Positions 5,615 to 35,396 of a DNA stretch of 64,000 nucleotides are shown here, one piece after another. Positions within the stretch are counted from its first letter, which is position 1. Every line of letters starts with the position of its first letter. The stretch lies in assembly GCA_020350825.1 (NCBI GenBank), contig CP070724.1, positions 2,213,095 to 2,277,094 on the forward strand, written 5' to 3'. This stretch comes from Thermoplasmatales archaeon. GTDB taxonomy: Archaea > Thermoplasmatota > E2 > DHVEG-1. The notes under the pieces were generated by a model that was not told the DNA's origin, made no database searches, and saw only the letters and a program-made list of their open reading frames with translations. The translations under genes were made by a program, and so were the position numbers.

Positions 5615-6268
5615 ATGATGGGAACAAAAATATTTGAAAAAATAAGAAAAGAAGATGTAGGAGCTATTGGTATCGGTGCAATGATTGTTTTCATTGCTAT
5701 GGTTCTTGTCGCTGGTATCGCGGCATCGGTACTGATACAAACTAGTTCGAATCTTCAAATGCAGGCGCTAAGTACTGGACAGGAAACCATTGCTGAGGTT
5801 GCAAGCGGCTTAAAAGTTGAGGGAATCTCAGGACATAATAGTTCGGGATTAATTGACAAGTTAGCAATAGAAATTACTCCGTTAGCTGGAGCACCGGATA
5901 TTGATTTGTCTCAGGGAGTAGTTGAGATTTCAGATTCAGACGGTAAGTACATTTTAAGATATGGAGATGCACTCACTAATATAAGTTCTGTAAATGGGAG
6001 TATCTTTGATGTCAGCGACTTTGGTGATGCTACAACATTTGATATTATTGTGCTCCAAGATGCTGATGAATCGTGTCTTGTAGCTACACCTGTGATTAAT
6101 TATGGAGATCATGTTATACTTGCAATTAACACAACATTAGCTTTTAACAGTAGCTTACCTCCAAGACAGGACGTTTTTGGTTTGGTTATTCCAGAGGAAG
6201 GATCATTCGGTGTAATCGGATTTACTGTGCCACCAGCTGTTACTGAAGCAGTAGTGAGTTTACAATAA
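5615..6268 (+). CDS. arlB: Archaellin (filament subunit) 1
   Basis: The 217-residue product is a pre-archaellin. A short basic class III signal (FEKIRKEDVG) precedes the hydrophobic helix AIGIGAMIVFIAMVLVAGIA, the segment that packs into the filament core after removal of the leader by the ArlK/PibD-type peptidase, with the likely cut after Gly in DVG. The remaining beta-rich domain carries several N-x-S/T sequons and ends with the archaellin-like FGVIGFTVPPAVT. Length matches typical archaellins. A GGAGG site lies nine bases before tandem ATG codons. The next archaellin starts 15 bp downstream, so the two are cotranscribed. The peptidase gene is not in the window. Confidence 0.95.
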   Translation: MMGTKIFEKIRKEDVGAIGIGAMIVFIAMVLVAGIAASVLIQTSSNLQMQALSTGQETIAEVASGLKVEGISGHNSSGLIDKLAIEITPLAGAPDIDLSQGVVEISDSDGKYILRYGDALTNISSVNGSIFDVSDFGDATTFDIIVLQDADESCLVATPVINYGDHVILAINTTLAFNSSLPPRQDVFGLVIPEEGSFGVIGFTVPPAVTEAVVSLQ

Positions 6269-6283
6269 GGAGGATGAAAAGAC

Positions 6284-6982
6284 ATGAATAAAATTTGTAA
6301 AATCTTTAGGGAGAAAGATGTTGGCGCTATCGGTATTGGAGCAATGATTGTTTTCATAGCTATGATCCTTGTTGCAGGAATTGCTGCAAGTGTTCTGATA
6401 CAGACTTCTAGCACCATAGAATTGCAAGCTATGAAAACCGGGCAACAAACCACACGAGAGGTGTCTGGTGGTATTCAAGTCTATGACATCGAAGGGAAAA
6501 TAAACGTGTCCGGTGGAACTAAATATGATTTGAAATATTTGGCTATTGGTGTGAAGGCAAGAGCAGGGTCAGGTGGTATGGATCTCAACAACTCTTTTGT
6601 GATTATTAGTGACGGAAGCCAAAAAGCACTGTTGAGATATGGCGGTTATAATGATGCAGATCTTTACCAAGCCAATCCAAGTGGAGACGTTTTTGATATC
6701 CTAAATAGTGCTCAATGGAATAAAACCGATCGCGAAACATTTGGAATAGCCGTTATTCAGGACTACGATGGTTCTATCAAACAAACGTCACCAACGATGA
6801 ATAGGGGAGATAAGGCTATCATATTTATCCGCTGCGAGGCGTCACTTAATGGCGCCTTTGGTCGAGAGATTCCAGAGCGGACACCAGTGTTTGGCCAGGT
6901 CATACCAGAAGTAGGATCACCAGGTGTGATAAAATTCACAACACCAATGTCATACTTTGATGAAATTTATGACCTACAATAA
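6284..6982 (+). CDS. arlB: Archaellin (filament subunit) 2
   Basis: The 232-residue product is a paralogue of the preceding archaellin with an almost identical N-terminus (REKDVG then AIGIGAMIVFIAMILVAGIA), so the same leader peptidase and filament core packing are expected. The outer domain differs (for example GGMDLNNSFVIISDGSQ) and the C-terminus reads GSPGVIKFTTPMSYFDE, the conserved end of the family. The start is an ATG ten bases after GGAGG. It is cotranscribed with archaellin 1, and a hairpin plus T-run directly downstream probably ends the transcript. Having several subunits usually means major and minor filament components, but which is which cannot be read from sequence. Confidence 0.95.
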   Translation: MNKICKIFREKDVGAIGIGAMIVFIAMILVAGIAASVLIQTSSTIELQAMKTGQQTTREVSGGIQVYDIEGKINVSGGTKYDLKYLAIGVKARAGSGGMDLNNSFVIISDGSQKALLRYGGYNDADLYQANPSGDVFDILNSAQWNKTDRETFGIAVIQDYDGSIKQTSPTMNRGDKAIIFIRCEASLNGAFGREIPERTPVFGQVIPEVGSPGVIKFTTPMSYFDEIYDLQ

Positions 6983-7048: not shown

Positions 7049-7233
7049 TTATTAATTTTCTCCTTATATAATTAACACTGTTATCAATTCATCAACCAAT
7101 CGAAGTTTCCATTATATGCACAATTACAATTGAAAACCATAAATTTTTATTCTCTTTTGTATTTCTGATTATTAATTAATCTTTCTTGAACTTGTTTATG
7201 GAAACAAGATGAAGAAGGAGGTGAGGGGATAAA

Positions 7234-7881
7234 ATAATATCTATCAAGACAATAAGTAAAGATGAGAATGCTGATATAGGCGTGGGCTCTTTAATAATAT
7301 TTATTGCCATGATACTTGTGGCTGGTATAACAGCGTCTGTTCTGATTCAAACTATGAGTAGCCTACAAGAACAAGCAATGCAAACTGGCCTAGAAACCAT
7401 TAGAGACGTTTCGGCTGGGCTAAAAGTTACACACATTAGTGGATATGCTAATGTATCACAAATTGGACAACTTGCTATATTTGTAGCACCAAGTGCTGCA
7501 TCAGCTGATTTAGATCTTATGCAGGGATATATCTCCCTATCTGATTCGACTAAAAGTGTTATTCTAATTTACAATAGCAGCTGTTTTAGTAGCAGCATTT
7601 CAAATGGTTTATTCAATACATTGAATTCGAGCCATCTAAACTCTAATGAATTTGGTCTTATAGTAATTAGGGATATTGACACTTCTTGTAATTCTACTAC
7701 ACCTGTTATAAATAATGGGGATTTGGTTGTTTTATTAATAAATACCACAAAATGTTTTTCAGGAATTGGTACAAGAACCGAAGTATTAGGAAATGTTATT
7801 CCAGAATATGGTATCAGTGGGGTAATAGGTTTTACAACACCAAGTACTTTTGCCAATACGATAGTCGATTTGCAACCTTAA
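7234..7881 (+). CDS. arlB: Archaellin (filament subunit) 3, apparent ATA start
   Basis: The mature region VGSLIIFIAMILVAGITASV, together with the preceding SIKTISKDENADIG, aligns with the leader and core helix of the two upstream archaellins, and the end reads YGISGVIGFTTPSTF. The first conventional start codon is GTG at 7282, but that would remove the whole leader peptide. Between the upstream stop (TGA at 7222) and that GTG the only reasonable initiators are two tandem ATA codons at 7234 and 7237, placed behind a strong AGGAGGTGAGGGG ribosome site at 7216-7228. From ATA the product is 215 residues with a normal class III leader. The alternative is a start-codon mutation or a sequencing error. 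It is transcribed separately from archaellins 1 and 2. Confidence 0.88.
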   Translation: MISIKTISKDENADIGVGSLIIFIAMILVAGITASVLIQTMSSLQEQAMQTGLETIRDVSAGLKVTHISGYANVSQIGQLAIFVAPSAASADLDLMQGYISLSDSTKSVILIYNSSCFSSSISNGLFNTLNSSHLNSNEFGLIVIRDIDTSCNSTTPVINNGDLVVLLINTTKCFSGIGTRTEVLGNVIPEYGISGVIGFTTPSTFANTIVDLQP

Positions 7882-7916: not shown

Positions 7917-9012
7917 TTATCTCCCGAAGAATAGTTTAGCGATTTCATATAAGTCCATGTCAACTGTTTTTAGGTTGGAAACCACTTCTTCAAGTTCAAC
8001 TGGGACAATTTTATTTCCTTGCAGAGCAACCATTTTCCCATAATTATTTTCATTTATCAATTCAACAGCAGCAACACCAAATCGTGTTGCTAAAACCCGA
8101 TTATACGCAGGAGGGGATCCTCCTCTTTGTACATGACCAAGAACAGTAACCCTAGTATCTACTCCCAGGTGTTTTTTGATTTCTCTTGCTAGAAAATATT
8201 CGATTCATCTAAGTTTTACATGGCCAAATTCATCTTTTTCATCGGTCTGAGCTATTAATGTGCTTTCTCCCGAATATGACCAAGTTCACCTTCTTCACCA
8301 GTTTGTGCAACTGATAAATCTTCTTTTAAGGGTTGAGCACCCTCAACTACTACAACTATACTGAATTTTTTGCTACAATCATAACGTGCCTTCAGATGAT
8401 TACAAACAAATTCAATATCAAATTGTTCCTCAGGAATTAATATCTCATCAGCTCCACCAGCAATACCTGCCACTGTCGCAATCCATCCTGCATGTCTACC
8501 CATTACCTCCACGACTATTACTCTATGATGAGACTCAGCAGTTGTATGAAGCCTATCTATAGCCTCAGTAACGATAGAAACCGCGGTATCAAATCCAAAT
8601 GTATAGTCAGTGCCAGAGAGATCATTATCAATTGTTTTTGGGATACCCACTACAGGAACACCAATTTGATGAAATTTAATGCAACACCAAGAGTATCCTC
8701 ACCGCCGATAGCTGCAATACCATCAATTCCAAAATTTCTAATATTCTCAGTAAGCTTTTGTACATCCTCCTCATGTTTAAACGGATTTGTTCGTGATGTC
8801 CCAATGATAGTTCCACCCTTTGGAAGGATGCCAGAGACAGTGTAATCTGTAAGTGGTTCCACATCGCCTTCTATTAGACCTTTCCCTCCATTTCTTATAC
8901 CTAAAATTACCCAGTCAAATTTAATAGATTTTTTAACTACAGCTCGAATGACCACGTTCAAACCTGGACAATCTCCCCCACCTGTTAAAACTCCAATTTT
9001 TTCATACACCAT
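7917..9012 (-). pseudogene. Disrupted 6-phosphofructokinase gene
   Basis: Pieces of one PfkA-family protein lie in order on the minus strand but in different frames. The N-terminal part starts near 9012 (IGVLTGGGDCPGLN) and contains GGEDTLG. A one-base loss near 8671-8680 shifts the frame before [21 protein letters not shown] and [10 protein letters not shown] second break around 8210-8320 contains an imperfect tandem copy of the segment [13 protein letters not shown], followed by a stop, and an in-frame TGA sits at 8205-8207. The tail (VTVLGHVQRGGSPPAYNRVLATRFG) runs to 7917. The Asp after GG(D/E) and the Lys in PKTIDND are the residues usual in PPi-dependent enzymes. With at least three lesions it is almost certainly not functional as a single protein. 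Confidence 0.9.
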
Positions 9013-9125
9013 CCCTTTAATCAATATATTCTTTATCATGCAAATATTTTAACAAGTTATGGTTTCTATTTTCACCTAGTGTCTTACTACAATTGAAATA
9101 CAATATAATAAAGGCGAGAAAACTG

Positions 9126-9360: not shown

Positions 9361-11142
9361 TTACATGCCAAGATATCCACCTAAACTAATATCGATAAAA
9401 GCCCCAGTTATCGCAACAACCCATACGAAAGGAACAAAGTAAAAGAGCGTCATCAGCATATGGCTCCCTTTTAGAGTCCGGATAGTGATAGCCAACATAA
9501 AACAGTGTATAACTAATACGATGAATACAATAATAAAATTATTGGTAAAAACCTCTGGGGGAACAGTACTAAGTATTGCTCCTACGTCAATAGTTGTACC
9601 TGCAAAAGGATCTCCCCCCATTCCCTCGATTAATATAGTATTAAGATGTCTTGCTATCACAAGCGAAGTATAGACGCTAAAGGCTATACCAAATGTGATC
9701 CCTCCAAAAAGGGCTGCCGTAGTATTAACAATGGTTAATTTTTTTATTCTTAAATCCCTAATTTTTCTAATATTTTCAGATATCATTCTCGAAACTCTTC
9801 GCGGATTGGCAGCCGCAGCGGTAGATTGCCTAAACATCTCACATGAGCGTTGAATATAGTTACTCCCAGTGTCAATACCAAACCATTCCCATGAATCATT
9901 ATCACTTATTCTTGTTCTTAACCTTCTATAGAGATCGCGAATATGTTTTGTTAAAACTCCATAATCTTTCTCACTTAGATAATATACCGAAGCATTTATT
10001 TTTCCTCCTCTCATAGTAGCTATTGACCCTAAAGATGGTAGAAAACCAAGAAAGTTTTTTTCTTTCCTTGAAATATCTTCCTCAGCTTTAAGGACTTTAA
10101 CACCAGGAATTATTAACGGAGTAAGTAACGCTGCTACTACAATCTCAAATGGAAACATCTCTAACATAGGGATCTTTAAACTATACTTCCCAAAAAATAG
10201 AATCGAACCTACCAATATACACGCTAAAACTGAGATTTTAAAAAGCTTTTCTAAACCTAATTCTAACTTCCCTTTTTCACCAGTAAGATGCCATATCTCA
10301 TCGGCTGGAACCATTGCCCGTAAAAGATAAAGGAGCAAACCTTCGGAAACTATTAAAAGGAAGGATGATAGAAAAATAAAGGTGTTCATATCCTCAGCGC
10401 CTATTATCATAGGTAAAACTATTCCAAGAGCCATTACAAAAATAATTGCAATGAGTAAGCTTACGTAAACCTCATTAAGAATTGTAATATTTTCATTTGC
10501 AGATTCATACATGGTTTTATATTCCTCTAAAACAGCATCTTGTTCCGTTTCGATAAACTCCCTATGTTCAACACCGCTATCAAGACTTTGTGAAAATCTG
10601 TCTAAGAAATCTCTGAGAATTTTGCTAGGCGTTCTCTTAGATATGAACATAAAACTTCTTGAAAGCGGAACACGCCATTGATCAGAAAGGACACTTATCT
10701 TTCTAAGTTCTTCCCCAAGACTTCCATATGCCTTGTTTCCCCCAAGCATGCCAATTATATCCTTCAAAGATGTATCAGATATTGCTAAAACTCTAATATG
10801 GGTAATATAAAAATGCATTTTCCCATTTATATCAGATTCTTTGTTTTTCCAGGATATATAAGGATAAAAAATTCCTAGAAATATCGGGACTATCCCTCCA
10901 ATAATAAACATGATGGGATTTAACTCAAGCGGAACAGGAATGATTATCTGCAATATAAAAGGCATACAAAAGACCAATATTCCTATAACAATCAAAGGAA
11001 ACAAAATTGTTTTATAAAATTTCTTAGTGTCCTCAAGGCTCCTATAGGCAATTTTCAGTTCTTTTAGTGATTTTTTTTTATCCTTAACTTTTCGATTTTT
11101 TCTTCTCAATTTTTTTGACTTAACCTTTTTTTCTTCTGCCAT
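9361..11142 (-). CDS. arlJ: ArlJ archaellum membrane platform protein
   Basis: The 593-residue product is the polytopic membrane core of the archaellum motor, related to TadC/GspF. After a Lys/Arg-rich cytoplasmic N-terminus come groups of membrane helices near residues 42-95, 225-275 and 300-345, and a C-terminal set (about 490-590), separated by two cytoplasmic T2SF-type domains. The second contains LGFLPSLGSIATMRGG, a conserved feature of this family. ArlJ docks the ArlI ATPase at the base of the filament. It is the last core gene of the operon, starting eight bases after arlI. Its length fits archaeal ArlJ. Confidence 0.95.
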   Translation of the reverse strand: MAEEKKVKSKKLRRKNRKVKDKKKSLKELKIAYRSLEDTKKFYKTILFPLIVIGILVFCMPFILQIIIPVPLELNPIMFIIGGIVPIFLGIFYPYISWKNKESDINGKMHFYITHIRVLAISDTSLKDIIGMLGGNKAYGSLGEELRKISVLSDQWRVPLSRSFMFISKRTPSKILRDFLDRFSQSLDSGVEHREFIETEQDAVLEEYKTMYESANENITILNEVYVSLLIAIIFVMALGIVLPMIIGAEDMNTFIFLSSFLLIVSEGLLLYLLRAMVPADEIWHLTGEKGKLELGLEKLFKISVLACILVGSILFFGKYSLKIPMLEMFPFEIVVAALLTPLIIPGVKVLKAEEDISRKEKNFLGFLPSLGSIATMRGGKINASVYYLSEKDYGVLTKHIRDLYRRLRTRISDNDSWEWFGIDTGSNYIQRSCEMFRQSTAAAANPRRVSRMISENIRKIRDLRIKKLTIVNTTAALFGGITFGIAFSVYTSLVIARHLNTILIEGMGGDPFAGTTIDVGAILSTVPPEVFTNNFIIVFIVLVIHCFMLAITIRTLKGSHMLMTLFYFVPFVWVVAITGAFIDISLGGYLGM

Positions 11143-11149
11143 TTTACCA

Positions 11150-12793
11150 CTATAAAGTAAAAGGTATTCCTTTATCTCCCTCTCTATAAAATCCCCATAT
11201 GCATTGGACTACTTCATAATAATCAAATACATCCTCTTCAACCATTCTTTCAAGTATATGCTTTCTATGTTCATATTCATCATAAATTTCAGCAGTATCC
11301 TTATATCCTGCGTTTTTTGCAATTTTTTGCTCAAGGATATAACTATTTTTGTTTGAAGTAAAAATATGCCTATCTTCGTTAGGGTTCCATTCAAACGCTT
11401 TTCTTGCCATTATGCCATCTACTGCTCTATTGTATCCTTCGATTTCATCTATTGAAGTGACTCTCCTCATCATTTTCCCGTCTCGTTCTAAAGCAAGTTG
11501 TATTACAACAAAATCAAGGTTGTCCATAAATGTCTTTGGTACATTGATTGGATCTCCAGTAAATCTTTGAATAACTTTTGTTACATTTCCAGCGTGAAAT
11601 GTAGTCATACATGGATGTCCAGTTTGCATAGCCTGAAATACAATGTTTCCTTCTGCACCTCTTACCTCTCCAGGAATGATATAATCAGGTCTTGATCGTA
11701 ATGCTGCTCTCAGGAGATCAAACATATCCACTTGTCCCTCTTTAGGTCCAGATGTCTTTGTAAGTAATCGCTGCCATACAGTATGGGGCACTTGTAGCTC
11801 AGGAGTTCCTTCAGTAGTATAGATCTTTTTCTCAGGTGGGATGAAGGGAATTATTGCGTTCATAGTTGTTGTTTTTCCACATGCTGTACCCCCACATAAG
11901 AAAAAACTCCTACCATATTGCAAGCAAATCCACAGATAAGAAGCAAGTCCAGCGTTAAGCGTGCCCCAGTTTATTAATTGAGTTATACTAATCGGAGTTT
12001 CAGTAAACCTTCTGATTGTCATGCTGGGTCCTTTTAAACTTACGGCAGAACTATAAATGATATTTCCTCTACTTCCATCTGCAAGCACGCCATCAACGAT
12101 AGGCCGCCCTTCGCTAACCGGGACGCCCATTTTTTCACTTATCATTTTAGCAAATACAGGGGCTTCCTTGTTATCAATCACTACATTGGTTTTAATCATC
12201 TCAAAAACCTTATGGATAAGATGAACGTTCTGTCCAGCAATTAGATGAATATCTTCAATATATGGATCTCTCATAAAACACTCAATCGGCCCGCTACCGA
12301 CTAATTCCTTAATTATGAAATATTCTATATTCTTTTTTTGAGTCGAAGTAACTTTCACCTTGTCACCAATTGATTTACCTTTTTTTTTGATTTCAGCTTT
12401 TATTGCTTTTTCATCTATAACTATAATTTCATCAATAAGCTCAGTGAGGACTACATTCAAATCGCTATCTGTTATCACGCTTCTCTTCTCAGGTGCTTTT
12501 TTTACAATCAATTTTAGTATTTGTTTATGTTTTTCCTTCTCAACATCATTTAATATAGGTTCTATTGCTTTATATTCAGGTGCTTCCATATCTTGTGTTC
12601 TATAGATGTGAATAAAAATCATTCCTTTTGTAGGATATATTAAGTTAGGATACTTTTCGTCCCTAACTTTCCGAGGTAAGGGACTATAAAAATCAGGATC
12701 TCCTATTTTTTTCTTTATGTCTTCAACATATTTTACAAGATGCGGATTTTTTTCAAGAAGGTTTTGTATCTCTTCTTTTCCCATTTTTGTCAT
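11150..12793 (-). CDS. arlI: Second ArlI archaellum ATPase
   Basis: The start was set at ATG 12793, nine bases after GGTGA and matching the MTKM start of its neighbour. The 547-residue product is a full-length type II/IV secretion ATPase of the ArlI class: helical N-terminal domain, Walker A GGTACGKTT (near residue 306), TTEGTPE in place of the usual E-D-T-P-E box, a Walker B region DYIIPGEVRG, and the His box TGHPCMTTFHAG. All nucleotide-binding motifs are intact, but the P-loop differs from the copy upstream (GETASGKTT). It is similar along its whole length to the preceding ArlI, implying tandem duplication. The two might form mixed hexamers or serve different states of the motor. Confidence 0.93.
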   Translation of the reverse strand: MTKMGKEEIQNLLEKNPHLVKYVEDIKKKIGDPDFYSPLPRKVRDEKYPNLIYPTKGMIFIHIYRTQDMEAPEYKAIEPILNDVEKEKHKQILKLIVKKAPEKRSVITDSDLNVVLTELIDEIIVIDEKAIKAEIKKKGKSIGDKVKVTSTQKKNIEYFIIKELVGSGPIECFMRDPYIEDIHLIAGQNVHLIHKVFEMIKTNVVIDNKEAPVFAKMISEKMGVPVSEGRPIVDGVLADGSRGNIIYSSAVSLKGPSMTIRRFTETPISITQLINWGTLNAGLASYLWICLQYGRSFFLCGGTACGKTTTMNAIIPFIPPEKKIYTTEGTPELQVPHTVWQRLLTKTSGPKEGQVDMFDLLRAALRSRPDYIIPGEVRGAEGNIVFQAMQTGHPCMTTFHAGNVTKVIQRFTGDPINVPKTFMDNLDFVVIQLALERDGKMMRRVTSIDEIEGYNRAVDGIMARKAFEWNPNEDRHIFTSNKNSYILEQKIAKNAGYKDTAEIYDEYEHRKHILERMVEEDVFDYYEVVQCIWGFYREGDKGIPFTL

Positions 12794-12809
12794 ATTTTCC
12801 AATCACCAT

Positions 12810-14441
12810 TTACAATGAGATTGGTAGTCCCTTTATACCCTCTCTGTAAAAAGTCCAAATAAACTGAACCACCTCATAATAATCAAATATTTCTTCCTCT
12901 ACCATCCTTTCAATGATGTGTTTCCTATGATCAAATTCATCATAAATCCGGGATAAATCTGCATATCCAGCATTTTTTGCGCATCTTTGTTCCAAGATGT
13001 AACTATTTCTATTTGCTTTAAAGATATGTGTATCATCCACTGGATTCCATTCAAATGCCTTCCTCGACATAATGCCATCCACTTCTTTGTTATATCCTTC
13101 GATTTCATCTACTGATAGTACACGCCTAAGCCTCTTTCCTTTTCTTTCCACTGCCATCTGAATTAAAACCACGTCGAGGTTATCCATGAATGTTTTAGGA
13201 ATGTTGATAGGGTGTCCAGTAAAACGTTGTATAACCTTAGTTACAGACCCGGCATGAAAGGTTGTTACAACTGGATGTCCTGTCTGCATAGCCTGAAAAA
13301 CAACACGCCCCTCTATCCCTCTCGTCTCTCCTGGAATTATATAATCAGGCCTGGATCGAAGTCCAGCTCTTAGGAGGGTTCCTTCATCAATATGTCCCTC
13401 TTTAGGTCCTGATGTCTTAGTAAGTAACTGTTGCCACACAGCATGAGGGACCTGTACCTCGGGCGTATTTTCAACAGAATATATTTTTTTCTCAGGAGAA
13501 ATAAAAACAAACATCGCATTTGCTGTAGTTGTTTTTCCAGATGCTGTTTCGCCACAAACAAAAATACTGCGACCGTATTGCAGACAAAGCCACAGATACG
13601 CAGCAATCCCCGCATCAAAAGTTCCCCAGTTGACAAGCTGGGTTATACTAATAGGAGTCTCACTAAATTTTCTAACAGTCATTGTAGGTCCTTTTAAACT
13701 TACATCTTTACTATGTATGATATTGACTCGACTACCATCAGGCAAAGTGCCATCTGCAATAGGTTGACCTTCGCTAACAGGACTTCCTATCTTCTCTGCG
13801 AACTCCTGTGAAAATCTACTTGCCCATTTCTTGTCAATATTAATATTGGTTTTGACCATATCAAAAACCTTATGGATAAGATGGACGCAATCTCCTGTTA
13901 TTATATGAATATCTTCGATATAAGGATCTCTCATAAAACACTCAAGAGGCCCACCACCAACAATATTTTTTAGTATATCATATTCAATGTTCATCTTTTC
14001 AATAGAAGAAATTCTCAACTTACTCCCTTTTGATTTCTCTAATTTCCCACCTGCTTTTTTATCTAAAACAGTAAAATTATCAAAGAATTTTTTTATTGCA
14101 TTTTTTATTTCTTCATCAGTTTTAACCCTGTCCCTATAAGGGGCTTTTTCGTATATTCGGTCTAGAATTATGTCACGTTTTTGTTTTTCAACCTCATTTA
14201 ATTCTGGCTCAATCGAATGATAGTTAGTAAATTCCTCTCCCTCAGTTTTATAAATATGTATAAAGACAACTCCTTTTGTAGGATAAATTATGTTAGGATT
14301 TTCTTCTCCTTTTAAATCACGGGGCACCTTACTATAAAAAACAGGTCTAATCATTTTTTTTTCAATTTCCTGAAGATGTTTCCTAAGGTGAGGATTTTCT
14401 TTGATTAGTTTTTCCTCCTCATCCTTACTCATTTTTGTCAA
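12810..14441 (-). CDS. arlI: First ArlI archaellum ATPase
   Basis: The 543-residue product is the hexameric ATPase that powers archaellum assembly and rotation at the inner face of the membrane. Motifs in order are the helical N-terminal domain, the FMRDPYIEDIHII segment, Walker A GETASGKTT, VENTPEVQVPH, Walker B DYIIPGETRG, and the His box TGHPVVTTFHAG. The TTG at 14441 is taken as start because a GGGGGG stretch lies about five bases upstream and because TTG-ACA-AAA-ATG matches the ATG-ACA-AAA-ATG start of the second copy. It is followed after only 16 bp by the second arlI, an unusual arrangement, since archaellum operons normally carry one. Confidence 0.95.
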   Translation of the reverse strand: MTKMSKDEEEKLIKENPHLRKHLQEIEKKMIRPVFYSKVPRDLKGEENPNIIYPTKGVVFIHIYKTEGEEFTNYHSIEPELNEVEKQKRDIILDRIYEKAPYRDRVKTDEEIKNAIKKFFDNFTVLDKKAGGKLEKSKGSKLRISSIEKMNIEYDILKNIVGGGPLECFMRDPYIEDIHIITGDCVHLIHKVFDMVKTNINIDKKWASRFSQEFAEKIGSPVSEGQPIADGTLPDGSRVNIIHSKDVSLKGPTMTVRKFSETPISITQLVNWGTFDAGIAAYLWLCLQYGRSIFVCGETASGKTTTANAMFVFISPEKKIYSVENTPEVQVPHAVWQQLLTKTSGPKEGHIDEGTLLRAGLRSRPDYIIPGETRGIEGRVVFQAMQTGHPVVTTFHAGSVTKVIQRFTGHPINIPKTFMDNLDVVLIQMAVERKGKRLRRVLSVDEIEGYNKEVDGIMSRKAFEWNPVDDTHIFKANRNSYILEQRCAKNAGYADLSRIYDEFDHRKHIIERMVEEEIFDYYEVVQFIWTFYREGIKGLPISL

Positions 14442-33558: not shown

Positions 33559-34455
33559 TTACGAGAGATTTACAATTCTCTTTGAGAATACTGCAGGTGC
33601 GGTTGTATCGTATTGCGCCTTTATCCCTATTTCTGGTGTTAGCATCCCTGATACGGTTTCTCTTGGTGGTAATCCCCCTTCCAAAGTAAGGATGGCACTA
33701 AGGTTTACAATTATAATTATTCGATCTCCGCTGTTCATACCATATGTGGTAGTAACTGACAAATCTGGATCATGAATTGAGATGACACCAAATTTTATTG
33801 AGCTTACGTTATCTAATATAGTATAACTTGATCCTGATGTTATCGGTACCTCGAATACACTTTTGTTATCAGTGTTTACTTGTTGTACGAGTGATTCATT
33901 TAAGGTGAGAATTGATAGATTATTATATAAGACGGATAAAGTACATAAGCCAATATCGATATCTTTTGAACCTGCTCGGGGTCTTACAGTGAGTGCGAGG
34001 TATTCAATTTTTGTTTTATTTATATTTGTGTATCCTGTTATTGACTCTATTGCTACTCCTGCTGAAACTTCTCGAATAGTTGCTGTCCCTACGGTTTTTG
34101 CTCTTGATTGTAATGTTTCGCTAGTATTAATCAGTACTGCTGCAGCAACAGCTGCGATCAACACCATCGCAATGAAAACGATAAGTGTTCCAATTCCAAC
34201 CATTGCTTCTTCTTTTTTTATTAGAGATTTTTTATGTTTAATTTGTGTTTTTACTTTTGATTTTGGTTTTATGGCTATTATTGTATCAATTCTTAGACAT
34301 CCCAGTCCGCGGCTAGAATCAATTAATACAAAACCATCTTTATAGTCAACATCTTCAAGGGTACCCGTAACTACACTTGCTTTCTCCTCGCCGGGTTCTT
34401 TTGTTACGATCTTACAATATTTTCCTACCAGCCTTTCCATATACTTCTTTTCCAT
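33559..34455 (-). CDS. Archaellin with N-terminal Sm/SH3-like domain
   Basis: The 298-residue product has two parts. Residues 1-70 form a small beta domain (VGKYCKIVTKEPGEEKASVV, GTLEDVDYKDGFVLIDSS, IDTIIAIKP) resembling Sm/SH3-like folds. Residues 71-298 are a complete pre-archaellin: basic leader IKKEEA, core helix MVGIGTLIVFIAMVLIAAVA, beta domain, and an end region starting GMLTPEIG. A good GGTG ribosome site and the shared promoter module precede the ATG at 34455. No ribosome site precedes the archaellin part, although an ATA at residue 79 would give a normal six-residue leader. If translated whole, leader cleavage would release the N-terminal domain into the cytoplasm. A lost stop codon fusing two genes is the main alternative. 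Confidence 0.88.
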   Translation of the reverse strand: MEKKYMERLVGKYCKIVTKEPGEEKASVVTGTLEDVDYKDGFVLIDSSRGLGCLRIDTIIAIKPKSKVKTQIKHKKSLIKKEEAMVGIGTLIVFIAMVLIAAVAAAVLINTSETLQSRAKTVGTATIREVSAGVAIESITGYTNINKTKIEYLALTVRPRAGSKDIDIGLCTLSVLYNNLSILTLNESLVQQVNTDNKSVFEVPITSGSSYTILDNVSSIKFGVISIHDPDLSVTTTYGMNSGDRIIIIVNLSAILTLEGGLPPRETVSGMLTPEIGIKAQYDTTAPAVFSKRIVNLS

Positions 34456-34772: not shown

Positions 34773-35396
34773 ATGAATAATGAAGGAGCTACTGGAATTA
34801 CAACTGTTATACTACTTGTTAGCTTTTTATTAATAGGTGCGACTACTGCATCTGTTTTAACAGGCAATTCAAATAATATATCAGAACAGGATTTAGAAGA
34901 GATGGTGGATAATATTGTAGATGAGATATCCACATACATACAAATAAAAGATGTAATGGGTAAATTTTATTTTACCGGAGGAGAACCACAAATACAAAAA
35001 ATTGCTGTATTGATAAAACCTCTTTTTTCTATAGATATGAATGTATCAGAGATAATGATAAAACTTTGTAACGGAGAACAAATAAAAATGCTATATTACG
35101 GCGGACAAGCAGAATTTTTTCACTCAAATTCATTATTTGAACATCCAATATGGGATAATAATAGAGATAATAACTTTAATTTTATTGTCACCCTTGATAA
35201 AGATAGATCTCTAGTGAATTACAATACTATAAACGAAAATACTGATATGGCATATATCACAATCAAATTATCAGAAGATTTTACTATGACAAAAGGAGAT
35301 ACTATGACAATTACTTATTTCCTATCTAAAGGAGCGACTAGAACAATAACTGTGGAGGCTCCATTACCAACTAAACAAATAGTTACTCTTGGATAG
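34773..35396 (+). CDS. Divergent archaellin-like protein
   Basis: The 207-residue product begins NNEGATGITTVILLVSFLLIGATTASVL. The N-N-E-G then A-T-G-I start, hydrophobic core helix and following polar region fit a pre-archaellin with an extremely short leader that lacks the usual Lys/Arg. The rest is beta-rich with IQKIAVLIKPLFSIDMNVSEIMI, which parallels the LAIEITPLAGAPDIDLSQG region of the main archaellins, but it ends in TVEAPLPTKQIVTLG instead of the GVIGFTTP-type end. GTGATAAA lies just before the ATG. It may be a minor filament subunit or a pilin; processing by the usual peptidase is uncertain because of the missing positive charges. Confidence 0.75.
   Translation: MNNEGATGITTVILLVSFLLIGATTASVLTGNSNNISEQDLEEMVDNIVDEISTYIQIKDVMGKFYFTGGEPQIQKIAVLIKPLFSIDMNVSEIMIKLCNGEQIKMLYYGGQAEFFHSNSLFEHPIWDNNRDNNFNFIVTLDKDRSLVNYNTINENTDMAYITIKLSEDFTMTKGDTMTITYFLSKGATRTITVEAPLPTKQIVTLG

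Follow-up and report, generated by a model that had tools for sequence, protein, structure and literature searches.

Archaellin genes and the start region of archaellin C

Three consecutive archaellin genes, A, B and C, all matching PF01917, lie in the 64,000-nucleotide (nt) stretch of Thermoplasmatales DNA analysed here (the window, a stretch within one 2.32-Mb contig), and the third of them, archaellin C, has no in-frame ATG, GTG or TTG between the stop codon at 7222-7224 and the predicted cleavage site of its leader peptide. Archaellins A and B, in which a normal ATG follows the GGAGG core of a Shine-Dalgarno (SD) sequence by 9-12 nt, served as controls. The features concerned are:

5615-6268, plus strand: archaellin A, control gene, normal ATG with SD sequence
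6284-6982, plus strand: archaellin B, control gene, normal ATG with SD sequence
7217-7224, plus strand: SD sequence GGAGGTGA, 8 nt, recognised by sequence; its TGA doubles as the in-frame upstream stop
7234-7239, plus strand: ATA-ATA pair, of which one or both probably serve as start codon, at 12 and 15 nt past GGAGG, kept in the orthologs L039 and L040
7234-7272, plus strand: class III signal peptide (leader) IISIKTISKDENA, 12 or 13 residues long according to the ATA used, from translation, with the cleavage site taken from ortholog alignment A1
7273-7878, plus strand: mature archaellin C, 202 residues, PF01917, ortholog alignment A1

The frame of archaellin C is open from 7225 to its stop at 7879-7881 and begins TGA(7222) GGG GAT AAA ATA(7234) ATA(7237) TCT ATC AAG ACA ATA AGT AAA GAT GAG AAT GCT, followed after the cleavage site by GAT(7273) ATA GGC GTG, the mature start at GAT 7273 being placed by alignment A1 with 24 orthologs. 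The product is an archaellin by its PF01917 profile match (4.1e-25; 89 bits against a cut-off of 29.5), and it carries a class III leader (...KDENA, then DIGVGSLIIFIAM) with Gly at +3 after the predicted cleavage site and a hydrophobic N-terminus; Gly 3 and Gly 5 of the mature part are invariant in 25 archaellin C orthologs. As the original prediction held, conventional initiation would remove the leader, since no canonical codon appears in frame before GTG 7282, which lies three codons beyond the predicted cleavage site and inside the mature part; no canonical in-frame start preserves the conserved N-terminus. The perfect ribosome site that it placed before ATA-ATA is likewise present, as the 8-nt GGAGGTGA. 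This sequence occurs twice in the window, where only the 7217-7224 copy precedes the start of an open reading frame (ORF), and ATG, GTG or TTG is available in all remaining long ORFs of the window.

Orthologs and the codon behind the Shine-Dalgarno sequence

Searches of relatives, whose source records are metagenome-assembled genomes (MAGs) of uncultured Thermoplasmatota, yielded 31 distinct archaellin C orthologs, parted from the sister archaellins by a gap in score (301-349 versus 176-239 bits). Eight of the 31 (the window gene, L039, L040, L041, L108, L023, L058 and L060) have no ATG, GTG or TTG anywhere from the upstream stop to the cleavage site. A canonical codon at SD distance was counted by script in 6/31 orthologs, and reading the leaders by eye added L042, L052 and L061, giving an SD-coupled canonical start in 9/31, compared with 48/53 sister archaellins, in which it is always ATG (Fisher p=8e-9, using the larger count for C). 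Such a start is thus missing in 22/31 C orthologs versus 5/53 sister archaellins, and its absence is a property of the family, neither an error, nor a one-off, nor chance.

That sequencing or assembly error conceals an ATG in the window gene is extremely improbable. The neighbouring phosphofructokinase gene, with three indels relative to two close relatives, does raise the prospect of indel errors, or of a pseudogene, in this assembly, but ATA-ATA is identical in two other, separately assembled MAGs (L039 in G012 and L040 in G004, 95-96% protein identity), and the region is free of indels; an error would have to be common to all three assemblies. The phosphofructokinase gene itself (window 7930-9039, minus strand) is split by three gaps where L039 and L040 have an unbroken frame of 368 aa, reflecting either a pseudogene or assembly indels.

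A near-cognate codon is conserved at a fixed distance from the SD sequence. In the 18 C genes whose frame falls at +14 from GGAGG, the codon there is ATG in five (L042, L043, L044, L047, L052) and ATC, ATT or ATA (ATH; AUH in RNA) in ten (L048, L049, L051, L053, L054, L055, L058, L059, L063, L070), so that ATN stands there in 15/18 against a background of 8%. With ATH at 5% among the codons of the leaders, the pattern has a binomial probability of 4e-11, which becomes 6e-7 once the closest clade is collapsed, further relatedness not being fully corrected. The ATG orthologs fall in three places of the protein tree, the deep forks of which are weakly supported; a recognisable start codon thus occupies, in some genes, the site at which the others carry codons differing from it in the third base. 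Furthermore, all three phases of the SD sequence relative to the frame occur in the family, from which it follows that the SD region is non-coding, and which argues that translation begins past it.

This variable phase also bears on the possibility that a canonical start is used elsewhere, either the GTG within GGAGGTGA or, in the window, the ATG at 7209, whose mini-ORF (ATG AAG AAG GAG GTG AGG GGA TAA) would have to pass into the archaellin frame by a +1 frameshift. Several orthologs do have an in-frame GTG within the SD sequence (e.g. L054, L055, L059, L062, L070), and the frameshifted window product would carry a plausible charged leader. However, GTG 7221 of the window does not lie in the archaellin frame, the SD GTG is missing in L041, L108 and L023, and in L049 and L058 it is unusable because an in-frame TGA separates it from ATH; ATG 7209 of the window could yield the product by +1 frameshifting, but L041 has no nearby upstream ATG. 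With the SD-to-frame phase not conserved, we consider a canonical start elsewhere unlikely.

A different near-cognate codon, such as the GTT or GTA found 8 nt past GGAGG in several orthologs and reminiscent of the GTC/GTT start of sigR, is also rather improbable. GTH stands at +8 in L048, L049, L051, L053, L054, L055, L059, L062, L065, L070 and L046, a spacing within the range of the sister archaellins, but none is available in the window (GAT, AAA, ATA, ATA), L058, L041, L108 or L060, and the ATG clade shows AGT or GAT at +8 and ATG at +14.

A second paralog from related archaea, D (L122-L129), shows a comparable arrangement. In 8/8 genes ACG stands exactly 9 nt past GAGG or GGGG, some 20-45 nt before the mature archaellin begins, while adjacent codons vary; within the mature portions, 25% of the Thr codons are ACG. 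A canonical in-frame start is missing in L122, L124 and L128, of which L122 and L128 are intact and L124, with an internal stop, is less reliable; TAA lies between the SD sequence and ACG in L122 and L124. An upstream ATG or TTG may instead be the start in L123 and L125-L127, two of which also have GTG two codons later. The paralog D ACG supports the view that near-cognate starts are used by archaellin paralogs of these archaea.

Selection on archaellin C and its leader RNA

Besides initiation on ATA, the original prediction had allowed that archaellin C is a silent gene held in reserve, switched on for phase or antigenic variation by mutation of ATA to ATG. The missing canonical start and the presence of several archaellin paralogs side by side would fit such a silent or decaying gene. 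Yet the ratio of non-synonymous to synonymous substitution rates (dN/dS) of the mature part is 0.20-0.24 relative to L039/L040 and 0.07-0.19 in other pairs, the leader differs from theirs by one synonymous and no non-synonymous change, and frames are intact throughout the ortholog set; this purifying selection indicates that archaellin C is not silent, and the dN/dS of 0.20-0.24 with an open frame does not describe a pseudogene. No hypermutable tract was seen at the ATA-ATA codons, and relatives keep ATH, which persists in its three third-position forms across species and genera, with ATG orthologs confined to few places in the tree, unlike scattered revertants. A silent reserve is therefore unsupported and very unlikely, leaving initiation on ATA as the better supported of the two options, strengthened by the family-wide pattern.

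Upstream of the start region, two further features were recognised:

7133-7152, plus strand: promoter-like element AAAACCATAAATTTTTATTC (TATA box region) for a separate archaellin C transcript, conserved upstream of most C orthologs
7180-7221, plus strand: predicted leader hairpin, P1 (7180-7187/7214-7221, spanning GGAGG) around P2 (7191-7197/7202-7208) with loop 7198-7201

From sequence, we infer both the promoter role of AAAACCATAAATTTTTATTC and the transcript start site. The leaders of the window gene, L039 and L041 are predicted to share one fold over the 43 nt up to and including GGAGG, with an 8-bp stem over GGAGG enclosing a 7-bp hairpin. Pairing is kept in 44/45 cells with three two-sided changes, against 64-78% in slid controls, the comparison comprising only three distinct sequences, and the covariation score was matched by column shuffles in 33/500; the modelled hairpin is a possible gate on the SD sequence. 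A covariance model built from the three leaders gave only weak matches at the expected place, in L023 (E 5.9) and L070 (E 7.3), so a single RNA element common to the whole C family was not borne out, and a search of the window against Rfam returned no match. SD accessibility computed from single folds averaged 0.27 for C and 0.41 for A/B, with wide overlap.

Other leader features are restricted to parts of the family. In L049, L051, L054 and L055, some 24-50 nt before the cleavage site, a perfect hairpin, GAGTTAAA-(ATTAA/ATTAC/ATTGC/ATCTC)-TTTAACTC, places ATH within its loop; it was rejected as a general feature, showing no covariation (its sequence hardly varies) and not being general in the family. 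Translational coupling by upstream mini-ORFs ending at the SD sequence was likewise set aside, such ORFs being present in some orthologs only. Near the expected transcript start, GGATGGGCTCT is conserved in the leaders of L049, L051, L054, L055, L059, L062 and L070, where it opens a short ORF (MGSL...) that ends at or before the SD sequence.

The window also encodes two more archaellin-domain proteins, divergently oriented, at 33559-34455 (minus strand) and 34773-35396 (plus strand); about 84 residues extend the N-terminus of the former, as they do in relatives too. On the minus strand at 11150-14441, two FlaI-like ATPase genes in tandem (550 and 543 aa, named by eye) sit between a FlaJ-like gene (9361-11142) and a FlaH-like gene; the downstream FlaI-like copy (11150-12802) has GGTACGKTTT in place of the GETASGKTTT of the other.

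Proposed initiation and comparison with known systems

Taken together, archaellin C is probably a functional gene started on a near-cognate AUH codon, with the strong SD sequence compensating, and encoding a low-level or regulated minor subunit. Initiator Met-tRNA would read ATA 7234 or 7237 in the window genome, and likewise ACG in paralog D, the 8-nt SD sequence positioning the ribosome and offsetting the weak codon-anticodon match, while the leader hairpin that overlaps it would probably lower or gate initiation further. Output of archaellin C would then be small or regulated relative to A and B, or sensitive to aIF1, as might suit a minor hook or adaptor-like filament subunit; that role is suggested by analogy with Methanococcus maripaludis FlaB3.

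Several points weigh against initiation at AUH. Three of the 18 genes with the frame at +14 have no ATN there (L046 CAC, L062 AAT, L065 CAT); the spacing of 12-15 nt from GGAGG in archaellin C reaches or exceeds the 5-12 nt that its sister archaellins show; and the GTG within the SD sequence is formally possible as a start in several species. In addition, aIF1 is reported to destabilise or discriminate against non-AUG complexes (PMC6237735; PMC8211752), and its gene (SUI1) is present in this genome. Across the genome, GGAGGTGA with ATH behind it is no commoner than in a reversed control (28 versus 30 occurrences), which gives no support to a genome-wide relaxed start rule and places the near-cognate trait with these genes, not with the organism. 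At the sites of this kind with the longest ORFs (L142, L167), the SD sequence falls inside a longer frame. One further G000 site, GGAGGTGATATCTATA (L149, G000:C1:643900), precedes a roughly 90-aa ORF in which a GTG within the SD sequence is the sole early canonical codon.

More broadly, the C family suggests deliberately weak protein starts, previously not shown in Archaea. The chances seem evenly balanced that dedicated near-cognate initiation evolved in one Thermoplasmatota order, with AUH in C and ACG in D, each behind a strong SD sequence (in C joined by the hairpin overlapping it), and with weak, possibly aIF1-sensitive starts setting the amount or timing of minor subunits; if so, it would be without precedent in Archaea as a conserved system of non-canonical initiation. 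A ribosome profiling (Ribo-seq) study has described some small ORFs started by CTG (PMC11456600). In practical terms, gene finders limited to ATG, GTG and TTG will truncate or miss these subunits, and a paralog family with AUH in place of AUG provides natural test leaders for the effects of aIF1 and SD strength on archaeal start-codon choice.

Among characterised systems, several archaellin paralogs, one of them possibly minor, and a class III signal peptide of about 12 residues are shared with M. maripaludis, in which FlaB3 is the minor hook archaellin beside FlaB1 and FlaB2; the portions of that report consulted describe no non-canonical start for the minor subunit (PMC4336324). The nearest known cases of initiation are bacterial, and the putative mechanism of archaellin C would work like that of infC and sigR, here with AUH as the codon of an archaeal structural gene. 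The gene for IF3, infC, starts on ATT or ATC (PMC5472188), an AUH start whose third position, as far as this account goes, varies between taxa as in archaellin C; infC autoregulates an initiation factor, whereas archaellin C is a filament subunit with no evident feedback. In Streptomyces, sigR starts on GTC (GTT) behind a conserved AGGAGGTG and is repressed by IF3 (PMC5472188). In sigR as in archaellin C, an extended, conserved SD sequence (AGGAGGTG and GGAGGTGA, respectively) precedes a non-canonical start that different species retain while its third position varies among them. Unlike archaellin C, whose start is read from sequence, sigR uses GTC/GTT, not AUH, and its start was proven by mutation and N-terminal data; its sensor is IF3, a factor that Archaea lack, with aIF1 as their fidelity factor.
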